35,244 bases of DNA from a virus: positions 1 to 35,244 of the IMG/VR virus record IMGVR_UViG_3300027906_000062, one strand, 5' to 3'. The notes below the pieces were generated by a model, which searched no databases, had not been told where the DNA came from, and saw only the letters and a program-made list of their open reading frames with translations. Shown here piece by piece: positions 1,337 through 35,244 of this stretch. The translations under genes and the position numbers were made by a program. How positions within the stretch are numbered: position 1 is the stretch's first letter; every line of letters begins with the position of its first letter.

Positions 1337-1888
1337 TCATCCTAAGAAGGGACTTATTGGGCCTTCTTCTTTTATTTCTTCTTCTGTTACTGGTTTAACT
1401 TCCGCACCAGGGAAGTTGCTCTTTATTGCATCTGTAAACACAAATGATTCTTTAGGTATTAGTTTTAGCAATTCTTCTATGTGCCAAACACTATCCATAC
1501 AATTCTCTTTCTTGGCCATTGCTACTGCCTTGGCATAGAAGGCCTTATCCTTCACCACCAGAAACCTTATATCTTTGTAAGTAAACGCCCAGATCTCACC
1601 ATTCAATTCTTTATGGCCGCGTTCTTTTACATTCTGCTCACACTTATCGTATGCCCTCAACATACCTTCTGCTATTTGCTCAACGCTAAAGTAATTAGTC
1701 TTATTCTTAACTGATTTAAACTTATCGCACATTTGGATATAACGAGCGCACAAATCAGGATCTAGTAGATCCGCAAATCTATCTTCTCCCCATCTAAGGC
1801 TTATCTCAGATCTTCGTTGTTCAACTCTTGCCAATAATCTCATTACTCTATCTTTCTGTGGGTTAGGCGGTGCCTTATATTTAGTCAT
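1337..1888 (-). CDS. Hypothetical phage protein (183 aa)
   Basis: A soluble, charged protein beginning MTKYKAPPNPQKDRVMRL. Predicted largely helical with several Cys residues (at LCARYIQMC, KCEQNV and ENCMDS) and an acidic C-terminus ending GPISPFLG. No domain is recognised with confidence. It is the first gene after the repeat-rich gap at 1889-2017 and so is transcribed away from, or through, the candidate origin. The gene is long, unbroken and in the operon direction, so it is certainly real although its role is unknown. Confidence 0.65.
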   Translation of the reverse strand: MTKYKAPPNPQKDRVMRLLARVEQRRSEISLRWGEDRFADLLDPDLCARYIQMCDKFKSVKNKTNYFSVEQIAEGMLRAYDKCEQNVKERGHKELNGEIWAFTYKDIRFLVVKDKAFYAKAVAMAKKENCMDSVWHIEELLKLIPKESFVFTDAIKSNFPGAEVKPVTEEEIKEEGPISPFLG

Positions 1889-2017
1889 CGCTTAAATATG
1901 TAGCGCATAAACGAATAGCGCATAAACGCATAAACCCTATAGGGTTTTTATGCGTTTTAAGCGTTATTTCTTGTTTCATTTATGCGTTTTATGCGTTTTA
2001 TGCGTCACTTTATGCGT
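1889..2017. repeat. Octamer-rich gap: candidate replication origin or operator array
   Basis: Eight copies of TTTATGCG or its complement CGCATAAA lie in 113 bp. Three read CGCATAAA (starts 1904, 1919, 1927) and five read TTTATGCG (starts 1947, 1979, 1988, 1997, 2009). Copies at 1979, 1988 and 1997 are spaced exactly nine bases. A perfect 16-bp palindrome, AAACCCTATAGGGTTT (1932-1947), separates the two orientations. Iterons in AT-rich DNA directly beside the PrimPol-helicase gene are typical of a replication origin. An operator array for a phage repressor is the main alternative. Confidence 0.6.
1927..1954. other. Palindrome/hairpin at the centre of the octamer array
   Basis: The left arm CGCATAAACCC and right arm GGGTTTTTATGCG pair around TATA, with a two-base bulge on the right side. 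The inner 16 bp (1932-1947) are a perfect palindrome. It may form a cruciform in an origin, a protein-binding dyad, or a terminator hairpin after the leftward primase gene. There is no clear run of U after the stem in the leftward transcript. Confidence 0.5.
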
Positions 2018-4021
2018 TTAAAACAACTCCTTATCAGTTGGAATAAACACCCCAGGCCCCACTTCTTCTATCTTTTTATGATCATCAATTAACGCCTTTT
2101 TGGCATTACTTAGACCAGATGTAGTCATATCTCCCACTTCTTCTTTTAATTCTTTTTGCGTAACCGTAACCTCATGCACTTCTTCGCCTTTACCTCTAGC
2201 TGCTCTTACCTTCCTGGAATATACAGTCTCTAATGCTTCCAGAACGATCTTCTGATTAGGCCCTAATTGCTTTTCCTTATTTGGTGCAACGTATATATCA
2301 GTAACCAACGCTCCTGATGTTGTGGGTTGCCCTTCTTCGTCCAATAAGTGCATAAATTCACACTCATTAAAACTAAATCGCATAGGAGACATACCACGGC
2401 CGTCTTTAATAAGGGTTTGTTCCAGATCTAATGACCAATGGCTGTTGTCTATACCTTCGTCATTCTTAGATACCTTATATTCAGCATCCAACGCAGCAGG
2501 TAACACGCTAGATCCTCTACCCCTGGATCCTTCTAAATGCCCTGTATGATGCACCAACATAACAGCGCATCTAAATTCTTCTCTTATATAACGATCCACG
2601 TTAGCCACAAATCTATTCATGTCCTCTGTGCTGTTCTCATTACCTGGCCCAAAGTTCCTGGCTAATGTGTCTATTACAATTAGGGTAGGGCGTTCTTTAT
2701 AAGTATCTTGCAACACCAACGCTTCATTACGCATCATTTCAGCGTCTAAATTATCTAAGATCTGCACTCCTCTTTCTGAATAGTGCAATTTGCTATCCTT
2801 CAATGGTTTATCGTTTATTTGCTCCCATCCTAATAAACGTCTACTTAGTCCTCTGTGTCCTTCACCTGCCAGGTATAAACATAGGCCTTGTTTTGTCTTC
2901 TTTTCATGCCAATCAATACCTGTGGCCACGCAAGCTGCCATATCTATAGTGACAAATGATTTACCTGCTTTGGGTGGGCCAAACATACCTATTAATGAAT
3001 CTTCCTCTGCTACGCCTTTAATCACCCATTTTGGTGGGGTAGCGTTATCAATAGCTTCTGATGCGTGAAAGAATTTAAACGGCCTAACGTCTATTGGCTT
3101 TTCATACACCACTTGTTCCATACCAAGATTAGATCTAGCGTTATTAAATGCCGTTTTCCAGTCTGAATTGGCTTCCAGGATCCTGGCTACATCGAAAGCA
3201 TCGTGAGAATGGCCATCACCTAATAGATCTCCGCCGTGATGGCTATAAATAGTGCCATCGTCCAATAAGACGATGCCTGGCGTTTTGCTTGTAGAGTGGG
3301 GAGACAAGAAACGATTAGATCCTTTCTTTTCATACCCATTCTTCTCTAAGATTTCACTAACCGTGAATTTCTTATTAAACAGATCTATCACATCTGCACT
3401 ATCACTCTTTGTTGGTAATTGCCTTTTAATAGGCTTTGGGGAAAACCTGTCCAGGCAATGCAACATTGCTTTCTCCTCAACGTCCCAATTCTCCCAGAGT
3501 TCGATCAATCTATCTGGGAGAAGCGGGATTTCCTCAAATGAAGCAGGTAACGGAGTTACCCACTCATAAGGAACGCCAGTAGGGTGGATGCTTGGCGGAA
3601 GCAGATCTTGGCAACCTGCATTTCCAGTAGAACCGCGTAACTCGAAAACGGTAACTACTTTATCGGCTTCTTTATAGGTCAGCTTCTTAATGCCTATGCG
3701 TTCAAGATTAGGCATACGGAAAAGAAACTTAATACCTTCGCGCGAACCGCGCCAACAAGGATGCGCACTTTTCATTGCTGTTGCATCCATCCCTAAATAG
3801 TCTTGAAAGACTTTTATAGCATCATCTCTATTGTCTATATCAAGACTGCATGTGCTTGATAGGTTATGTATCAAGCCAATGTTCTGATTATCAGTTAATT
3901 GTTCAATGTCTACGCCTTTATGATGCCAATTAGCGGTCTGTGGCCCTTTATGGCCACTTTTCATCGCTACTAATTGAAAGCCTAATGCGTTGTATTGCCT
4001 AGCTGATTCCTTAATCCCCAT
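2018..4021 (-). CDS. Bifunctional PrimPol primase-helicase
   Basis: A 667-aa fusion. Residues 1-160 match the primase-polymerase (AEP/PrimPol) domain: SLDID metal site at 59-63, GSREGIKFLFR around 92-102, and ELRG...QDLLPPSIHPTG ending near 149 with its conserved His. Residues about 310-520 form a RecA/AAA_25-type helicase core: Walker A GPPKAGKS at 348-355, Walker B TLIVID at 446-451, and a following LVHHTGH sensor motif. The C-terminus has a small winged-helix-like segment. It would prime and unwind DNA at the phage origin. It sits between the SSB-like gene (9-bp gap) and the octamer-repeat gap, giving a compact replication module. Confidence 0.9.
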   Translation of the reverse strand: MGIKESARQYNALGFQLVAMKSGHKGPQTANWHHKGVDIEQLTDNQNIGLIHNLSSTCSLDIDNRDDAIKVFQDYLGMDATAMKSAHPCWRGSREGIKFLFRMPNLERIGIKKLTYKEADKVVTVFELRGSTGNAGCQDLLPPSIHPTGVPYEWVTPLPASFEEIPLLPDRLIELWENWDVEEKAMLHCLDRFSPKPIKRQLPTKSDSADVIDLFNKKFTVSEILEKNGYEKKGSNRFLSPHSTSKTPGIVLLDDGTIYSHHGGDLLGDGHSHDAFDVARILEANSDWKTAFNNARSNLGMEQVVYEKPIDVRPFKFFHASEAIDNATPPKWVIKGVAEEDSLIGMFGPPKAGKSFVTIDMAACVATGIDWHEKKTKQGLCLYLAGEGHRGLSRRLLGWEQINDKPLKDSKLHYSERGVQILDNLDAEMMRNEALVLQDTYKERPTLIVIDTLARNFGPGNENSTEDMNRFVANVDRYIREEFRCAVMLVHHTGHLEGSRGRGSSVLPAALDAEYKVSKNDEGIDNSHWSLDLEQTLIKDGRGMSPMRFSFNECEFMHLLDEEGQPTTSGALVTDIYVAPNKEKQLGPNQKIVLEALETVYSRKVRAARGKGEEVHEVTVTQKELKEEVGDMTTSGLSNAKKALIDDHKKIEEVGPGVFIPTDKELF

Positions 4022-4030
4022 TTCAAGATC

Positions 4031-4591
4031 TTAAAATGGAATATTGTCTTCTGGTTTCTCCTCTACTACTGGCTCAGGAGCAGCTTCCACTACTGGCTCC
4101 GCATCCCAATCACCTGGGCGTTCTACCCATTTAATGATTTCAAATTGTGGGATTCTGCTAGAACCTACGCTGAACTTCTTTTCCTCGGATCCTGTGTATT
4201 TGATAACAGGCAGTAATCCTTCCTTCTTTTCTGGGTGATTAGCAACACTTTGGTAGATTTCATTAATACCAGTTACAGGCCCCCATCCATTGGTAGTCCA
4301 GGAATAAACACCTTTTAAATGCTCGTCATTAAAATACAGATCTACAGATCTGGCAGGCTTGAAATCTTGACCTGGGTTGGGATCTGGTTTTAATAGATCT
4401 TCACGCCATAGATATTCAGGCGGCGCACCTGCTTGCACCTTACCCCATCCTGCTTTGATATTTACATAATCAAAGATAAAAGCGCTCATGGCTTTTTCGG
4501 AGATCTCTCCATCGTTATACACCCATTCATCTTTTTGTGGTTTATAAGCTACCCACTTAGCTTGGCTTTCGCCCATGTCGTCATTCAACAT
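4031..4591 (-). CDS. Probable single-stranded DNA-binding protein (SSB-like)
   Basis: A 186-aa protein with an ordered N-terminal region, a Pro/Glu/Val/Ala-rich linker (EPVVEAAPEPVVEEKP), and the C-terminal tip PEDNIPF. That tip copies the acidic DDDIPF tail through which bacterial SSB proteins bind replication partners. The body contains aromatic-rich segments (WTTNGWGPV) that could stack on ssDNA. No OB-fold signature is identified with certainty, so the call rests on tail plus location directly upstream of the primase-helicase. Start ATG 4591 has AAGGAG seven bases upstream. Confidence 0.6.
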   Translation of the reverse strand: MLNDDMGESQAKWVAYKPQKDEWVYNDGEISEKAMSAFIFDYVNIKAGWGKVQAGAPPEYLWREDLLKPDPNPGQDFKPARSVDLYFNDEHLKGVYSWTTNGWGPVTGINEIYQSVANHPEKKEGLLPVIKYTGSEEKKFSVGSSRIPQFEIIKWVERPGDWDAEPVVEAAPEPVVEEKPEDNIPF

Positions 4592-5363: not shown

Positions 5364-6008
5364 ATGAAAATATTAATAGGGTGCGAAACAAGCGGAACTG
5401 TTAGGGATGCTTTTTTAGAGAATGGCCACGATGCCTGGTCATGTGATGTGTTGCCTGCTGATACGCAGACCAATAGACACATTCAAGATGATGTTAGATA
5501 CGTCCTTCAATATGAACAATGGGATATGTTGATGGTTGCCCATCCACCATGCACCAGATTATGCAATAGCGGCGTTAGATGGTTGCACGTTCCACCACCA
5601 GGAAAAACAAAACAACAGATGTGGGAAGAATTAGAGGAAGGGGCCGCCTTGTTTTCAGATCTTTGGAATGTTGACGTTCCCAGGATAGCTATTGAGAACC
5701 CAGTTATGCACAAGCACGCAAAAGCAAGGATCCAGAACTTTGAACCGTTTACACAAAGCGTGCAGCCGTATGAGTTTGCCAAGTCTGTTGATGCAGAGGA
5801 CAACGTGACAAAGCGCACTTGTCTTTGGTTGAAGAACTTACCAAAACTGATCAAGACAGGAAGCCTGACAAGAGAAACAGCCAGGCAGGATATACACCTA
5901 GCCAGTCCTGGCCCTGATCGTTGGAAGATTAGGAGTAAGTTTCACAAAGGCCTTGCAAAAGCAATGGCTGATCAATGGGGTGGCAACTTAACAAAAGAGG
6001 TAGCGTAA
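5364..6008 (+). CDS. Short C5-type DNA cytosine methyltransferase-like protein
   Basis: 214 aa. It begins with an SAM-binding motif I (ILIGCETSGTVRDAFLENGH). The catalytic PPC of motif IV is at 61-63 (AHPPCTRLCNSG), and IENP at 110-113 stands for the ENV motif VI. VTKRTCLWLKNLPKL further on is typical of the short phage branch of this family. Classic C5 enzymes exceed 300 aa and have a target-recognition domain; this one has little room for it, so target choice is unclear. Likely role: modifying phage DNA against host restriction. The start ATG 5364 has GGGGTAG upstream, inside the end of the preceding gene. Confidence 0.75.
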   Translation: MKILIGCETSGTVRDAFLENGHDAWSCDVLPADTQTNRHIQDDVRYVLQYEQWDMLMVAHPPCTRLCNSGVRWLHVPPPGKTKQQMWEELEEGAALFSDLWNVDVPRIAIENPVMHKHAKARIQNFEPFTQSVQPYEFAKSVDAEDNVTKRTCLWLKNLPKLIKTGSLTRETARQDIHLASPGPDRWKIRSKFHKGLAKAMADQWGGNLTKEVA

Positions 6009-6011
6009 ACA

Positions 6012-6701
6012 ATGAAGACAATAACTACAAGCGCGCGTTCATTTGGACGCTATATTGGTTATCTGTCTAATGGAATAGACATAGAAGAAGCAAACAAGAT
6101 ATGCAAGAAAACACTTGGCATAGGATCCTGGACATTAGATCAATGGTTCGTGGAACCTAATCCTAAGAGGAGATTCCATAAACCTGAATTGGAGAAAGCA
6201 TTAGATATGTGCGTTGAAAGAAACGCCACGCTAATCATTCCTAAAGTTCAACATCTAGTTCACAATACAGTTTTTGTGGAACTTTGTTTTAGGGCGCAGT
6301 TCAAGGTGGATCAATTTAAAGTAAAAGATAAGAGGTTAGATGTTCTGGGTTGTGATCTCATGGGATCTGAACCTATGCAAATGGGCCTGCTTTACAGTCT
6401 CGCCCTGGCTAAGTCTGAAAAGACATCCAAGAGCGTTAAAAAGAAAATGAAGGAACTGAAAGAGAAGGGCGTTAAACTCGGCGCACCAGACCTAAGCATT
6501 GCCAGGGCGCACTCGTCCGCAGCACTTAGGGCCAGAGCAAAAGAGCGCAGGGTGAAGATCCTTCCCATCATTAAAGAGATCCAAAAGGACGGCAACAGAA
6601 CACTACAAGACATTGCCAGGCAGTTGAACAAAAGAGGGGTGCCAACAGCCAGGGGTGGTAAATGGTATGCCACTAGTGTTAAAAATATATTAAGAAAATA
6701 A
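6012..6701 (+). CDS. Serine-recombinase-like protein with lost catalytic residues
   Basis: 229 aa. The order of a small resolvase is visible: N-terminal strand YIGYLSNG, a helix EKALDMCVERNATLIIPKV, a CDLMGSEPMQMGLLYSLALAKSEK long-helix region, KEKGVKLGAP, then the C-terminal Recombinase-type HTH (ILPIIKEIQ...TLQDIARQLNKRG, PTARGGKWYATSVKNIL). The KLDRLxR signature of active enzymes is replaced by KVQHLVH (78-84), the RVS around the nucleophile is not intact, and the ER pair of the long helix is EK. It therefore probably binds DNA without cutting it. Located between the methyltransferase and an unknown gene in the early operon; an RVS-like N-terminus missed by eye remains possible. Confidence 0.7.
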   Translation: MKTITTSARSFGRYIGYLSNGIDIEEANKICKKTLGIGSWTLDQWFVEPNPKRRFHKPELEKALDMCVERNATLIIPKVQHLVHNTVFVELCFRAQFKVDQFKVKDKRLDVLGCDLMGSEPMQMGLLYSLALAKSEKTSKSVKKKMKELKEKGVKLGAPDLSIARAHSSAALRARAKERRVKILPIIKEIQKDGNRTLQDIARQLNKRGVPTARGGKWYATSVKNILRK

Positions 6702-10364: not shown

Positions 10365-10391
10365 TTGTAAGTTGCATTTTAAGAACGTCAA
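10365..10391 (-). promoter_or_regulatory. Late control element, copy C (before holin)
   Basis: Leftward strand: TTGACG, eight bases, ATGCAACTTACAA. It matches copies at 18881-18907 and 32867-32893 with identical spacing. TTGACG contains the TGA stop of the cyclase gene. If TTGACG is a -35, transcription would start about at the holin ATG, giving a leaderless or nearly leaderless holin mRNA. Probably lets lysis genes be timed separately from the cyclase operon. Confidence 0.65.
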
Positions 10392-12169
10392 CTCCTGTAG
10401 GTGTATATTTCTATCTTTTCTTCTTTACCTTTTACGTTTATTTCGTCTACATAATGGAAAGTCATACCTTCTACTGTTTTGATAGTTTCATAAGGGAATA
10501 GGGTATCTGCGTCATAGTTCCTAGTCTGTCCTTCTAACCTGGCTCCCAGGTTAACGGCATCACCTATAACTGATAGATCCATTCTTAATTCAGATCCCAT
10601 GTTGCCCACAATACAAGTGCCTGTGCTAATACCTGTGCCTACTTTTATTAAGGGCAACCCTAACCTTATAAACTCATCTCCTACCTTCTTGGCTTCTATT
10701 TCAATGGCCCTTCCTGCCAATAAGGCCTGCTTTCTGTGTTCTTCGCATGGGATAGGGTAGTTCCACCAGGCCATAATACAATCGCCCATATACTTATCTA
10801 TGGTGGCCCCATGATCCAGTAAGATATTGGTCATTTGATCCAAGAAGCCATTGATTAGATCTACTAGGCCCTCTGGATCATCTTTATTCTTAAACGCTTC
10901 ACTTATTGGAGTAAAGCCAACTATATCCATAAACAGAAAGGTCATTTCTTTACGCTCTCCGCCTAACTTCATAAGGCTCGGATCTTCAACAATCATGTCC
11001 ACATATTCTGGGGATATGTATTTACTGAACTGGCCTTTTATTTGTTCCCTTAGTTTCCATTGTTCTCTAAAACGTAAATAGTAAGACACGCTTCCTGTAA
11101 TGAATGAAGCTATTAATGTCCAGGTAACATCTAACAAAATGCCTGCTTGGATAAGCCAGTAACCACTACCTGTAAGCATAAAAAGGCTTAAACTGGTTAA
11201 TACTAACCCTAGGCTCATGCTTAGTTTGTTCGTTAGAAGCCACGCAAATGAGAGGAAAATTAGAAAAATAGCGATTTCTGCGCCCAAATGCCATTCTGGG
11301 ATCCTGGGAGAGTCCTGGATTAATATAGACTCAGCTAATGCGGCCTGTAAGTGATGCGGATTCATTAAACCGTTAGGCGTAGAAACTTGCGGAAGGATCC
11401 CACCACCGCTAGTTCCTATAATCACATACTTATCTTTTGCAGCTTCTAAGTTGTCCAGGTTAATAATCGGAGTGTCTACATAACTAACCCACTTACGCAT
11501 CAATGGATCTACTGGTATAGGTGGCAATGATGGAACCCTTATCTCCCCATCAGTCATATTAATTATGTAAGTATCTTGGCCTGTAAGCTGTTTAAGGATC
11601 TCTATTGCAAAGCTAGGGGTGAATCCATCTGGGGATCTTAATAATAATGGGATCTGTCTAACCAGGCCATCCACGTCTGTTGGTGCTGATGCGATACCTT
11701 GTGCGGCCTTTTGTTTTAATAGATCTATGTTCTCAACAACTCCCCTGGCCATATAGCCACCGCCTGTATCTTCTCCAAGTATTACCGTTCCTACAACTGG
11801 TGGGAAGGATCCATTGTCATTTTCAAACATAGCCAGGACAGAAGGCCCATATCCTAATGCTTCTGCAAAGGCTTCATCTCCGCCCATCCTATCTGGTTGT
11901 GGGAAGGTAAATGCCCAGGCCTGGCCAAAACTACCAGAATTTAATAGATCTACCTGGATCTCCGCTAATCTTTGCCTGGGTAATGGCCAACCACCTTCAT
12001 TAGCTATGTCTTCTTCCGTTATATCCAGGATAACGAAATTCCCAGATGGGGCCTGTTCTTTAATAAAAGCATCAAAGGTTTTTAGCTTTAAGATCTCCAA
12101 AGGGGTGAGTTGCATCAATAATGGCAATGCCAGGAGAATAAAGAGAATAGGGAATATAAGTCGTTTCAT
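10388..12169 (-). CDS. CHASE2-domain class III adenylate/guanylate cyclase
   Basis: 593 aa. Membrane helix at about 4-20, then an extracytoplasmic CHASE2 sensor at about 25-285 (VILDITEEDIANEGGWPLPR at 46-65 is its hallmark), three membrane helices at about 295-365, a linker, and a class III cyclase domain at 405-590. Catalytic residues are intact: metal Asp D415 (FLFMDIVGF) and D463 (YMGDCIMAW), purine-contacting K459, and N540 and R544 in VIGDAVNLGARLE. K459 with S533 at the Asp/Thr position favours ATP, so cAMP, as product; not proven. It starts one base into the FecR stop (TAATG) and ends at late element C. A cyclase in a phage late operon is highly unusual. Confidence 0.9.
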   Translation of the reverse strand: MKRLIFPILFILLALPLLMQLTPLEILKLKTFDAFIKEQAPSGNFVILDITEEDIANEGGWPLPRQRLAEIQVDLLNSGSFGQAWAFTFPQPDRMGGDEAFAEALGYGPSVLAMFENDNGSFPPVVGTVILGEDTGGGYMARGVVENIDLLKQKAAQGIASAPTDVDGLVRQIPLLLRSPDGFTPSFAIEILKQLTGQDTYIINMTDGEIRVPSLPPIPVDPLMRKWVSYVDTPIINLDNLEAAKDKYVIIGTSGGGILPQVSTPNGLMNPHHLQAALAESILIQDSPRIPEWHLGAEIAIFLIFLSFAWLLTNKLSMSLGLVLTSLSLFMLTGSGYWLIQAGILLDVTWTLIASFITGSVSYYLRFREQWKLREQIKGQFSKYISPEYVDMIVEDPSLMKLGGERKEMTFLFMDIVGFTPISEAFKNKDDPEGLVDLINGFLDQMTNILLDHGATIDKYMGDCIMAWWNYPIPCEEHRKQALLAGRAIEIEAKKVGDEFIRLGLPLIKVGTGISTGTCIVGNMGSELRMDLSVIGDAVNLGARLEGQTRNYDADTLFPYETIKTVEGMTFHYVDEINVKGKEEKIEIYTYRS

Positions 12170-13287
12170 TAGCTTCCTTGTTTAATTTTGATGGTATTAG
12201 ATGATCCACCGTTAACTTTAACGATGTTCTCCACGCCATTTTGAAAAAGAATTAACGTATAAGCGCTTGATCCGTCCAGATCTATCCTAAAACTATCACC
12301 TACGGCCCTTCTTATGCTTACTTGCTGTCCTGTGATTATGGTGGTGATCTGCGTTTCTTTGTCCTGGCCAATCTTTGTGCCTGCTATCTTTATACCTGTA
12401 GCAACCTGGTTTAATTGTTCGTCTTCTTTAATAATAGCCAGGGCATCTATAATCTTTAATAGATCTTCCAGGAAGTTAACATCCAGGTAATTTATATCTA
12501 ATTCAGTAAATTCAAGATCTGCTTCATTATCCAACATATCCTCTGCCAATAGATCTACGTCCAGATCTGTAAAGTCCAAATAGTCTGCTGTGCCTTGTTG
12601 TGTGCTTTCCTCTGTTGTGTCTTCCCTGGTATCTGGTCGATTAACAATAAGCATATTGTCTATTAACTCTAGGCTTATATCTAAGATCACAGGCTTAGAA
12701 GGGGCCTGGTTGTAAGTGATAGCTGTTGTGGCTTGATACGCTTCATTAAGTAAGACTTCTCCCATTGCTGTTTTTACTAATATCTCACCACTTGGGTTGC
12801 CGTATTCATCTGGGAGCAATATCACCAAACTAGATCCTAATTCTGGTGTTGTTGTAATGGTGAAATCAGTTCCACGCACATAAACATCAGCAGAAGGTGT
12901 TTTAATACTAATGGCTTTCTTATTGTTGAATTTACCTGTAACAAATCTGGCCGTGCCACTAGCAAAACGCAGGGCCATCTCTGACTTCTTAGGATCTGCG
13001 TCATAGACATAGCTGTTTATAACTAAACGGCTATGCGGCATTACTCTTACAATAGTATCATCCGCAAAAGTTATACCAACTCTGCCTGCTTCTGTCTTGA
13101 CGTTATCCATCTGTTGGATAGGAAACGCCAACTCTGCCCCATAAGGCTTATCTCTTAATACCTGGGCATTGCCTTTTAGTTCACTTATAGAACCAATATC
13201 AACAGCTTGTGCTTGTGCCTTGGTCGTTTTGAATAACACAAATGGTGCTAGTAGTAGAGCCAATGCTAAGTATTTTGAGCCAATCAT
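12169..13287 (-). CDS. Secreted FecR-domain protein with curlin-like C-terminus
   Basis: 372 aa. Signal peptide KYLALALLLAPFVLFKTTKA with likely cleavage after AQA near residue 27. A FecR-type beta domain follows: NAQVLRDKPYGAELAFPIQQ, GITFADDTIVRVMPHSRLVI, RFASGTARFVTGKF, KTPSADVYVRGTDF. The middle is highly acidic (LDFTDLDVDLLAEDML, LDINYLDVNFLEDLL). The end, FQNGVENIVKVN-GGSSNTIKIKQGS, fits the Q-x4-N-x5 rhythm of a curlin repeat. FecR-domain genes beside CHASE2 cyclases are known in bacteria, so it is a likely periplasmic ligand or partner of the next gene's sensor. Its first 89 bases overlap the curlin-like gene in another frame. Confidence 0.85.
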   Translation of the reverse strand: MIGSKYLALALLLAPFVLFKTTKAQAQAVDIGSISELKGNAQVLRDKPYGAELAFPIQQMDNVKTEAGRVGITFADDTIVRVMPHSRLVINSYVYDADPKKSEMALRFASGTARFVTGKFNNKKAISIKTPSADVYVRGTDFTITTTPELGSSLVILLPDEYGNPSGEILVKTAMGEVLLNEAYQATTAITYNQAPSKPVILDISLELIDNMLIVNRPDTREDTTEESTQQGTADYLDFTDLDVDLLAEDMLDNEADLEFTELDINYLDVNFLEDLLKIIDALAIIKEDEQLNQVATGIKIAGTKIGQDKETQITTIITGQQVSIRRAVGDSFRIDLDGSSAYTLILFQNGVENIVKVNGGSSNTIKIKQGS

Positions 13288-13912
13288 TATCTAATGTAGA
13301 TGCTTGTGTAACATTAAAGGTGCGATTAGATCCTTCGTGATCTAAGTAGAAATATCCGCCTGCATACCCATCTCCATTGTAGTTAACAGCATTGTCTGAG
13401 CCGTCAATGTCCATGTAGTTTGTAGCGTTATCAACATCTATAGCAGAAATAATCGTGTTACTAGATCCATTGATTATCCAGTCCAGATCTAAGGTGCTTG
13501 CTAAAGCCGCCGTGGCGTGATTGAGCGTAAGGTTGTTACTATTCCCAGTCACATCCACGTTCACATTACTTGAGTCTGCCCCATAGGTCGCAGTCTTGTC
13601 TGTGTTCATGGTGAATGTGTTGGAATTTCCATCAAATTCAAAAAAACCAATATAAGAATCTGAAACAATATCACCCAGAAACTTATTGCTATCTCCAATC
13701 TGGTTTATGTCTAATGTCATAGCTGTGCCATCAAGATCAAGTCCTGTCATGTCACCTGCCACGGCATCTGCGCCACCTATTATATTTCCAGATCCTAGTT
13801 GTTCTATATCCATATTTGAATGGGAAGAACCAGAACTCTGGTCTATAAATATTTCGTTATCCGCACCAAATAAAGGTGTAGATAACATTATTAATAAAAG
13901 TAATTTTTTCAT
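13199..13912 (-). CDS. Curlin-like repeat protein (putative amyloid subunit)
   Basis: 237 aa from the ATG at 13912, which overlaps the csgG stop (ATGA); GGAG lies upstream. Signal peptide MKKLLLLIMLSTPLFGA. The mature part is a run of about eight irregular repeats of pattern hydrophobic-x-hydrophobic-x-(Q/x)-G-x-S-N: IEQLGSGNI, INQIGDSNKF, FEFDGNSNTF, VDVTGNSNNL, WIINGSSNTI, MDIDGSDNAV, LDHEGSNRTF, LSIGSTTSTI. These resemble curlin (CsgA/CsgB) repeats but are more Asp-rich and less Gln-rich. Position after csgF and csgG makes it their probable export substrate. Amyloid formation is inferred. The last repeat is encoded in the DNA that also encodes the FecR signal peptide. Confidence 0.8.
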   Translation of the reverse strand: MKKLLLLIMLSTPLFGADNEIFIDQSSGSSHSNMDIEQLGSGNIIGGADAVAGDMTGLDLDGTAMTLDINQIGDSNKFLGDIVSDSYIGFFEFDGNSNTFTMNTDKTATYGADSSNVNVDVTGNSNNLTLNHATAALASTLDLDWIINGSSNTIISAIDVDNATNYMDIDGSDNAVNYNGDGYAGGYFYLDHEGSNRTFNVTQASTLDNDWLKILSIGSTTSTICVIQNDQGTSTSC

Positions 13913-14694
13913 TCTTTTAATCTCCAATAGTTATGATTTACACCCTCTATAATTGTTTCCAATACGGCCTTTTCAATGGCCATTTGCAAAGCAATACTGG
14001 TAGGCTCGTTTTTAACTGCGCCGCCTTCTAGTTCAACTAATTCTGTGTTGTCTGAAACAAATCTAAATACATCATTATCTAATGATGCAGATAATACTGT
14101 CTTCGTTACTAAGACCTCTATTAATACCTTTCCTGTGCTAACTGATACAGTTCTAAGGCTTATTGTAATAATATCTTCTCTATAGGACTTGGATAATCCA
14201 ATTCCCAGATAACGTGCGCCTGCACCACCAGATGTTATATTAGCCTGGTAACTTAGAACTCCGCCTACCATTATCATATCGCCAAACTTTAGGGGCATTA
14301 GCTTCTGTTCTTCATCAAAGTTTTCTCTGGTGGATCTAATTAACTGTCGTTCTTTTGTTAAGTTGTCTAATCCTACTCTTTCAACAACATCAAAGAACTT
14401 TGAATGTTTTAAGGCCCTGATTAGATAGGCGTGTGGGGCCTGGGAGATGGCACTAGAGAAGGTGGCGTATTTAGAGTTGGATCTTCTTGCTCCTGTTTGA
14501 TCCATAAAGCCATCAGCATATACAGCAATAACAGGCTTTCTTTCTGGTTCTCCTATTTGTGATAGATCTGTAAATAGGGAATGAACTACTGCAACTTCTG
14601 GCCTTCCTACGCCTAAATTGTTATCAAGCGGATCTATCATAAGACTACAACTAGAAAGTAAAGCCGCCAATAGGCACAATGACTTCTGTAACAT
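13909..14694 (-). CDS. csgG: CsgG-like outer-membrane curli secretion lipoprotein
   Basis: 261 aa from the ATG at 14694 (GAGG six bases upstream; another in-frame ATG lies at 14706). Lipobox LLSSC at residues 12-16 gives an N-terminal lipid anchor. Strong family matches: ALKHSKFFDVVERVGLDNL, LTKERQLIRSTREN, SGGAGARYLGIG, LRTVSVSTGKVLIEV, KTVLSASLDNDVFRFV, and NEPTSIALQMAIEKAV near the end. Length is close to E. coli CsgG (277 with signal). CsgG forms a nine-subunit pore for unfolded curlin export. In the constriction loop (SNSKYATFSSA) the Phe is kept, while the positions of E. coli Tyr51 and Asn55 appear as Ser and Thr. It overlaps csgF by 44 bases and the curlin-like gene by four. Confidence 0.93.
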   Translation of the reverse strand: MLQKSLCLLAALLSSCSLMIDPLDNNLGVGRPEVAVVHSLFTDLSQIGEPERKPVIAVYADGFMDQTGARRSNSKYATFSSAISQAPHAYLIRALKHSKFFDVVERVGLDNLTKERQLIRSTRENFDEEQKLMPLKFGDMIMVGGVLSYQANITSGGAGARYLGIGLSKSYREDIITISLRTVSVSTGKVLIEVLVTKTVLSASLDNDVFRFVSDNTELVELEGGAVKNEPTSIALQMAIEKAVLETIIEGVNHNYWRLKE

Positions 14695-15139
14695 TTCCGT
14701 CCTCATCAGTTATTTTAACGCGCACTTCTTCGTCTGTTATTTCATATTCTATGGTGTTGCCATCCAATTCCATGGATCCGCTTTTGTTGGTTTCTTCACC
14801 AAACAAAGACGCTTCTACTTGCCTGGCTATGTTTGCATAGATCCTGGAAGTTAAATTACGCATAAATCTAGCTTCTACCGTGTTGGTTTCCTCTCTCTCT
14901 AATTCGTCTTTTAAAGCCTGTATCTCATCTTTGATGGCCTGTTTGCGGTTGGTTTCTTGATTCTCAATAGTTAGATAATGACTAGAAGTATTTTGGCCGT
15001 TGAAAGAGGGTGATTTAAACTCATGCACCATTTCGTCTGCATTGGCCACAGATACCATAACTACTACGGTAATAAGAATGGATGAAATAAATAATATTTC
15101 ACCGTAACCGTCTTTCTTTTTAGTCTTTTCTTTGGTCAT
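14651..15139 (-). CDS. csgF: CsgF-like curli assembly factor
   Basis: 162 aa. A lysine-rich start (MTKEKTKKKDGYGE) and a hydrophobic stretch ILFISSILITVVVMVSVANA end in a probable signal cleavage after ANA. The mature N-terminus, MVHEFKSPSFNGQN followed by a helix with IENQE, matches the CsgF segment (E. coli MTFQFRNPNFGGN) that plugs into and caps the CsgG pore. A charged coil (KDELEREETN), a helix with NLTSRIYANIARQVEASLFG and a final beta part (IEYEITDEEVRVKITDEDGN) follow, as in CsgF. It overlaps csgG and the upstream membrane-protein gene, so expression is coupled. No csgE, csgB or csgD was found in the window. Confidence 0.85.
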   Translation of the reverse strand: MTKEKTKKKDGYGEILFISSILITVVVMVSVANADEMVHEFKSPSFNGQNTSSHYLTIENQETNRKQAIKDEIQALKDELEREETNTVEARFMRNLTSRIYANIARQVEASLFGEETNKSGSMELDGNTIEYEITDEEVRVKITDEDGNVTEVIVPIGGFTF

Positions 15140-35230: not shown

Positions 35231-35244
35231 GCGCGGAAACCTGT
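35231..35244. repeat. Terminal direct repeat, right copy
   Basis: GCGCGGAAACCTGT, identical to bases 1-14. See the left copy for interpretation as circular overlap or cohesive end. Confidence 0.85.

Follow-up and report, generated by a model that had tools for sequence, protein, structure and literature searches.

Genome organization and gene neighbourhood

The window analysed here was a stretch of 35,244 nt which comprised the whole of one virus record, IMGVR_UViG_3300027906_000062. The genome was that of a tailed phage, described as marine, which encodes its own terminase and tail proteins, and the large terminase was nearest to those of Roseobacter phages CRP-821, CRP-822, CRP-831 and their relatives with approximately 50% identity. 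An identical run of 14 bases, GCGCGGAAACCTGT, was found at both ends of the record (1-14 and 35231-35244), which could mean a circular or circularly permuted genome.

The locus is centred on a gene for a PrimPol-helicase (Table 1). A Prim-Pol domain (PF09250) was identified at residues 7-169 of the protein (E 1.3e-12) and an AAA_25/RepA-type helicase domain (PF13481) at residues 320-496, and the profile of the whole protein matched RSF1010 RepA in the PDB (1g8y, E 4.7e-6). The upstream gene probably encodes a ssDNA-binding protein; the roseophage gene in the same position is annotated as such. The window copy of the downstream partner gene showed no match in Pfam, PHROG or NCBIfam. It belongs to a family of 160-190 aa with the motif WGxxRF..L..P.L..R whose conservation 3' of the array extends to distant relatives. 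The intergenic gap between the helicase stop codon and the start of the 183-aa ORF was filled by an array of octamers around a palindrome.

Elsewhere in the window, a small recombinase-like ORF at 6012-6701 (+) matched Recombinase PF07508 over its C-terminal part only (E 5e-7) and adjoined a DNA methyltransferase-like gene (5364-6008). In addition, a curli-like block was identified at 10388-15139 (-) with CsgF (PF10614, E 1.6e-19), CsgG (PF03783, E 7.7e-47), a curlin-like repeat protein, a FecR-domain protein and a CHASE2 adenylate/guanylate cyclase. Relatives of this CsgG were found in pelagiphage HTVC008M (46% identity) and in the Methylophilales phages Melnitz (42% identity).

Table 1. Features of the PrimPol-helicase locus and its intergenic array in the window.
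Feature	Position	Strand	Basis
Downstream partner gene, 183 aa, conserved in relatives	1337-1888	-	ORF
Origin-like element, iteron array and palindrome, intergenic	1889-2017	-	Repeat counts, same architecture in relatives
Degenerate iteron, one mismatch, TTTAAGCG (window strand: CGCTTAAA)	1889-1896	-	
Exact iteron TTTATGCG	1904-1911	-	Word search
Exact iteron TTTATGCG	1919-1926	-	Word search
Exact iteron TTTATGCG, overlapping left end of palindrome	1927-1934	-	Word search
Central perfect palindrome AAACCCTATAGGGTTT, core of longer hairpin	1932-1947	no strand	
Exact iteron TTTATGCG, overlapping right end of palindrome	1947-1954	+	Word search
AT-rich spacer, 6 G/C of 24 (25% G+C), between inner and outer iteron sets	1955-1978		
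Degenerate iteron, one mismatch, TTTAAGCG	1956-1963	+	
Exact iteron TTTATGCG	1979-1986	+	Word search
Exact iteron TTTATGCG	1988-1995	+	Word search
Exact iteron TTTATGCG	1997-2004	+	Word search
Exact iteron TTTATGCG	2009-2016	+	Word search
PrimPol-helicase, 667 aa	2018-4021	-	ORF and domain search
C-terminal winged-helix domain, residues ~588-661, proposed iteron binder	2039-2260	-	Structure model
Predicted recognition helix, residues 634-646, at covariation peak	2084-2122	-	Model and covariation
Upstream 186-aa gene, probable ssDNA-binding protein	4031-4591	-	Acidic tail ending NIPF; roseophage annotation

Iteron array and palindrome

The initial annotation had described eight octamers in 113 bp directly after the PrimPol-helicase gene, three on one side of a 16-bp perfect palindrome and five in the opposite orientation on the other, and the counts reproduced this description. 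Eight exact copies of TTTATGCG were located at 1904-2016 with the palindrome between the opposed groups, and the two one-mismatch copies brought the array to ten. Read along the helicase-gene strand, the element consists of five copies of CGCATAAA, the palindrome and three copies of TTTATGCG. The partial nine-base periodicity also claimed was true of the copies starting at 1979, 1988 and 1997 only, with the other spacings being 15, 8, 20, 32 and 12 bp. Because the octamers on either side share bases with the palindrome, the three together form one longer hairpin. The short iterons fall into two sets (1904-1954 and 1979-2016). The centre between the opposed repeats is the palindrome with its GC core, and the AT-rich spacer, a candidate melting region, lies between the sets.

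A maximum of three copies of any octamer per 113 bp was reached when the whole window was dinucleotide-shuffled 100 times, and likewise in 1000 shuffles of 1889-2017. Outside the array, TTTATGCG was found once, within coding sequence (14859-14866), with 1.2 copies expected genome-wide, and no second cluster of the word was found anywhere in the window. For each of the six arrays examined, the single strand folded much better than shuffled sequences did (z -3.7 to -5.6). A search of named phages with the nucleotide sequence of the region itself gave no match. Finally, GC skew showed no inflection at the array in the window; it is uninformative on an origin because it tracks gene orientation.

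Arrays in relatives and cultured phages

Conservation in relatives, a check proposed in the initial annotation, was seen for the architecture. Relatives kept the order of direct repeats, palindrome and inverted repeats directly 3' of the helicase stop codon (orientation, for example, ++++++----), and the word itself differed between them. The word CGCATAAA was shared by the window with L003, L018, L006 and L012, while GTATAAA was found in L004, ACAGTAAG in L005, ACGCTAAA in L007-L010, CGTACAAA in L014, ACACTAAG in L015, TCCGTAAG in L017 and GATATAAA in L019 and L020. More distant groups used AGTTACAT, TGGTGTC (GGTGTC), TGGTTCC and TGGTTGG.

Arrays were also present in cultured phages, with the word CTACAAA in CRP-811 and CRP-823 (that of CRP-811 also given as ACTACAAA), GTATAAA in CRP-821 and CRP-831, and GGCTGGAA in CRP-406. 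Idiomarinaceae phage 1N2-2 carried CGGTACA, Salicola phage CGphi29 GGGGACA and the spring-water genome ct3Oc712 TGGGACA, and a less regular array was present in Burkholderia phage BcepGomr. In two of these phages the word was largely confined to the array (10 of 10 genome copies in CRP-811 and 10 of 11 in CRP-831), and the CRP-811 word was absent from the CRP-831 genome and vice versa. Use of the repeats as operators elsewhere in the genome, which the initial annotation had named as evidence against an origin, was thus not seen in these two phages or, as a second cluster, in the window. No such array followed the gene in Mycobacterium phage Hetaeria, Gordonia phage Sour or Vibrio phage 168E36-1, which have related helicase domains, and the element therefore does not accompany every helicase of this kind.

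The palindrome was maintained independently of its sequence in one close pair. L019 and L020 were 98.25% identical over 800 bases, with 8 of the 14 differences in the palindrome core, which stayed nearly palindromic though its sequence was replaced. The core at bases 128-139 after the helicase stop codon was swapped as a block for another near-palindrome, perhaps by a template-switch event.

C-terminal domain of the PrimPol-helicase

The last hundred residues of the PrimPol-helicase had no Pfam family, and a PDB search with a profile built from the C-terminal domain sequence gave no relative. A full-length AlphaFold model was made as well as one of residues 569-667, which was predicted as a winged helix with a mean pLDDT of 82, consisting of helices at 588-611, 622-629 and 634-646 followed by a two-stranded wing. 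Structural comparison of the domain gave winged helices including those of Cdc6 and MCM as best matches, a generic fold match only. P4 alpha was absent from the list of structure matches, which says nothing either way.

The initial annotation had left the binder between the PrimPol and HTH proteins, and covariation pointed to the PrimPol-helicase's own putative winged helix. In a close clade of ten PrimPol proteins, few of them independent, word similarity followed recognition-helix identity with a partial r of 0.90 (permutation p 0.0003) when identity over residues 1-560 was held constant, and showed no relation to the remainder of the protein (r 0.09). The partial r was 0.88-0.93 in leave-one-out analysis and 0.75 (p 0.006) after dropping three members with a shortened helix region. 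Larger sets of 27 to 35 members gave partial correlations of 0.52 to 0.56 (p 0.0002). A scan of the whole protein in 327 windows of 14 residues, with no prior choice of region, placed the five top values at starts 623-631, with a median of 0.02 overall. Individual relatives showed the same pattern. L012 was closest to L007 over residues 1-560 (84%) yet had the helix motif SGLSNAKKAL of the window together with the word of the window, and L014 and L015, with 84% identity over residues 1-560 and 17% within the winged helix, had different words. Overall, the covariation strongly supports the helicase C-terminal domain as the putative iteron reader.

The 183-aa partner was considered as the specificity factor and rejected. 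Near-identical partner proteins occur in L004 and L005 with different words, and the partner is therefore not the reader; L012 shares the word of the window, yet its partner shows only 50% identity and is separated from the array by an inserted gene. As to a separate iteron-binding protein, the covariation instead points to the helicase's own domain as the likely binder, and the partner does not follow the word.

Apparent cassette exchange of winged helix and array

DNA identity between L004 and L005 was mostly 80-100% up to approximately helicase residue 565, fell to 49-61% over the winged helix and array, and returned to 90-97% in the partner gene. The same dip (58-77%) with recovery on both sides was found between CRP-831 and CRP-811, an independent lineage. 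The pattern resembles a swapped cassette, in which reader and sites appear to change jointly between conserved flanks. The DNA-reading domain is encoded last in the gene and the sites begin one base after the stop codon, which places both within approximately 0.5 kb; exchanged together by recombination, they would change origin specificity in one step.

Several distant relatives with an unrelated ORF directly after the helicase at first showed no array there. The word predicted from the recognition helix (TGGTTG or GGTGTC) was then located in L030, L036, L038, L046, L050 and L071, in dense clusters with the usual opposed orientations 500-1140 bp downstream. These six loci amount to approximately four independent cases, since L036/L038 and L046/L050 are near-identical pairs. 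Only partial arrays of the predicted word were found in L032, L037 and L039, and none was found within 2-3 kb downstream in L040, L044, L048 and L074 despite a TGGTTG-type recognition helix. These four loci form a minority and count against the origin reading. The contig of L054 was too short to show an array.

Varied unrelated ORFs were found between the helicase and the array or partner in L030, L036, L044, L046 and L071, and other ORFs lay between array and partner gene in L009 and L012 with the array intact, as if the flanks of the array were a hot spot for cargo genes.

Proposed function and alternative explanations

The element is very probably the replication origin of the phage, with the octamers serving as iterons that the C-terminal winged helix of the PrimPol-helicase would bind. 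Architecture, position and conservation agree with the iteron-type origin proposed in the initial annotation, from which the start of replication at the array is inferred. Binding to several iteron copies in the two opposed sets would load helicase rings so that they flank the hairpin-prone palindrome or the AT-rich spacer next to it. The loaded helicase would open the DNA, and the fused primase would then start synthesis.

Other functions of the array were weighed against the same evidence. The octamers might be operators through which the helicase winged helix or another regulator represses or activates the 183-aa gene, with replication starting elsewhere, and the position of the array between two co-directional genes, ending at the start codon of a downstream gene that is conserved in many relatives, would suit such control. 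This is unlikely, as a search of the array gave neither a sigma-70-like promoter nor an intrinsic terminator, the almost identical partner proteins of L004 and L005 are associated with different words, and the array stays intact in L009 and L012 where other ORFs separate it from the partner. The number of sites, eight to ten with a structural palindrome, is also high for a single operator. Dual use as origin and for autoregulation is possible.

It is very unlikely that the array is a cis-acting region resembling P4 crr, to which the initiator would bind and on which replication would depend although it begins at another site. P4 has clusters at both of its sites, and a second word cluster was found neither in the window nor in CRP-811 or CRP-831; the resemblance lies in crr being directly 3' of the alpha gene with octamers in both orientations, approximately 4.5 kb away from the P4 ori. 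A recombination or maintenance site, whether an attP with arm sites, a partition centromere or a packaging site, is extremely improbable. Word specificity tracks the helicase recognition helix, the array adjoins a replication gene and not the terminase genes, and CRP-811 and CRP-831 have the element with no annotated integrase or partition gene, even though direct repeats around a palindromic core resemble att arms and the window encodes the recombinase-like ORF.

Beyond the replication origin itself, a tentative reading, which we rate at somewhat below even, is that winged helix and array together form a cassette that sets origin identity, is exchanged freely and is under diversifying pressure. 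Near-identical replication proteins would then have mutually unreadable origins, and the natural set would hold a legible helix-to-word code. Rival phages, satellites or origin-targeting nucleases are possible sources of such pressure.

The principle that a helicase C-terminal domain reads adjacent iterons is already known. As far as literature searches show, an origin for this group of primase-RepA phages, a reader named by covariation, and reader and sites as one exchanged cassette are new. If true, the finding would assign origins across a large group of marine phages, both cultured and uncultured, whose origins were not found described, and would name the binder from sequence alone. The many word-helix pairs in otherwise similar proteins would also be a ready-made data set on specificity change in winged helices.

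Comparison with known replication systems

SaPI Rep helicases read iterons directly 3' of their own gene through a C-terminal domain, and the isolated C-terminal domain of SCCmec Cch2 binds repeats downstream of its gene (PMC7581432), while in PICI origins two sets of iterons lie 3' of rep (PMC6092414). The array of the window likewise lies immediately 3' of the initiator-helicase gene with two sets of short iterons, in the same position in relatives, and the C-terminal helicase domain is the putative reader from covariation. Origins of the SaPI/PICI type also have an AT-rich region between the sets; in the window the 24-bp spacer with 25% G+C lies there, but the centre of the opposed repeats is taken by the palindrome with its GC core. 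In contrast, SaPI and PICI Reps are related to DUF927 or D5-type (D5/Primase_Cterm) helicases and are carried on satellites, and the window fits neither; a RecA-fold RepA-type (AAA_25) helicase is joined here to a Prim-Pol in a complete tailed phage, and a central palindrome is built into the iterons.

P4 alpha combines primase, helicase and a C-terminal winged-helix origin-binding domain in one protein (PMC4234260), the same layout as modelled here, and the P4 sequence record places the crr octamers as the window places its array. P4 alpha differs in having a TOPRIM primase and a different helicase, compared with Prim-Pol PF09250 here, and P4 has two repeat regions (crr and ori, with type 1 repeats) and no annotated central palindrome, whereas the window has one cluster. 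In pRN1, a stem-loop just downstream of the ORF904 gene is required for replication, its structure being conserved and its sequence not (PMC4234260). The protein resembles that of the window in its Prim-Pol, helicase and C-terminal winged helix followed by a structural hairpin downstream, and the palindrome kept without its sequence in L019 and L020 recalls the pRN1 stem-loop. Unlike the window with its RepA-type helicase and iteron array, pRN1 has an SF3 helicase and no iterons. Sequence-specific binding of the replication protein to the pRN1 origin could not be shown (PMC4234260), which counts against the reading of the array as an origin bound by the winged helix. RSF1010 has a hexameric RepA-family helicase, to which that of the window is related by sequence (1g8y), and likewise an iteron origin, but it divides primase, helicase and iteron binding (RepC) among three proteins (RepA/RepB'/RepC), where the window apparently has one chain.

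A precedent for exchange was found in the Vibrio cholerae PLE RepA and ICP1 Odn, in which origin iterons and initiator specificity change together by module exchange and an origin-directed nuclease selects changed iterons (PMC8263062). PLE differs in having another RepA, semi-palindromic iterons of approximately 30 bp and no cassette at the 3' end of a helicase gene. By analogy, an origin-directed nuclease is a possible driver of cassette exchange here. Finally, a role as origin reader for the terminal winged helix of primase-helicases, RepA-type fusions among them, was suggested by Kazlauskas and colleagues (PMC5862659), and the natural swaps described here make that suggestion directly testable.
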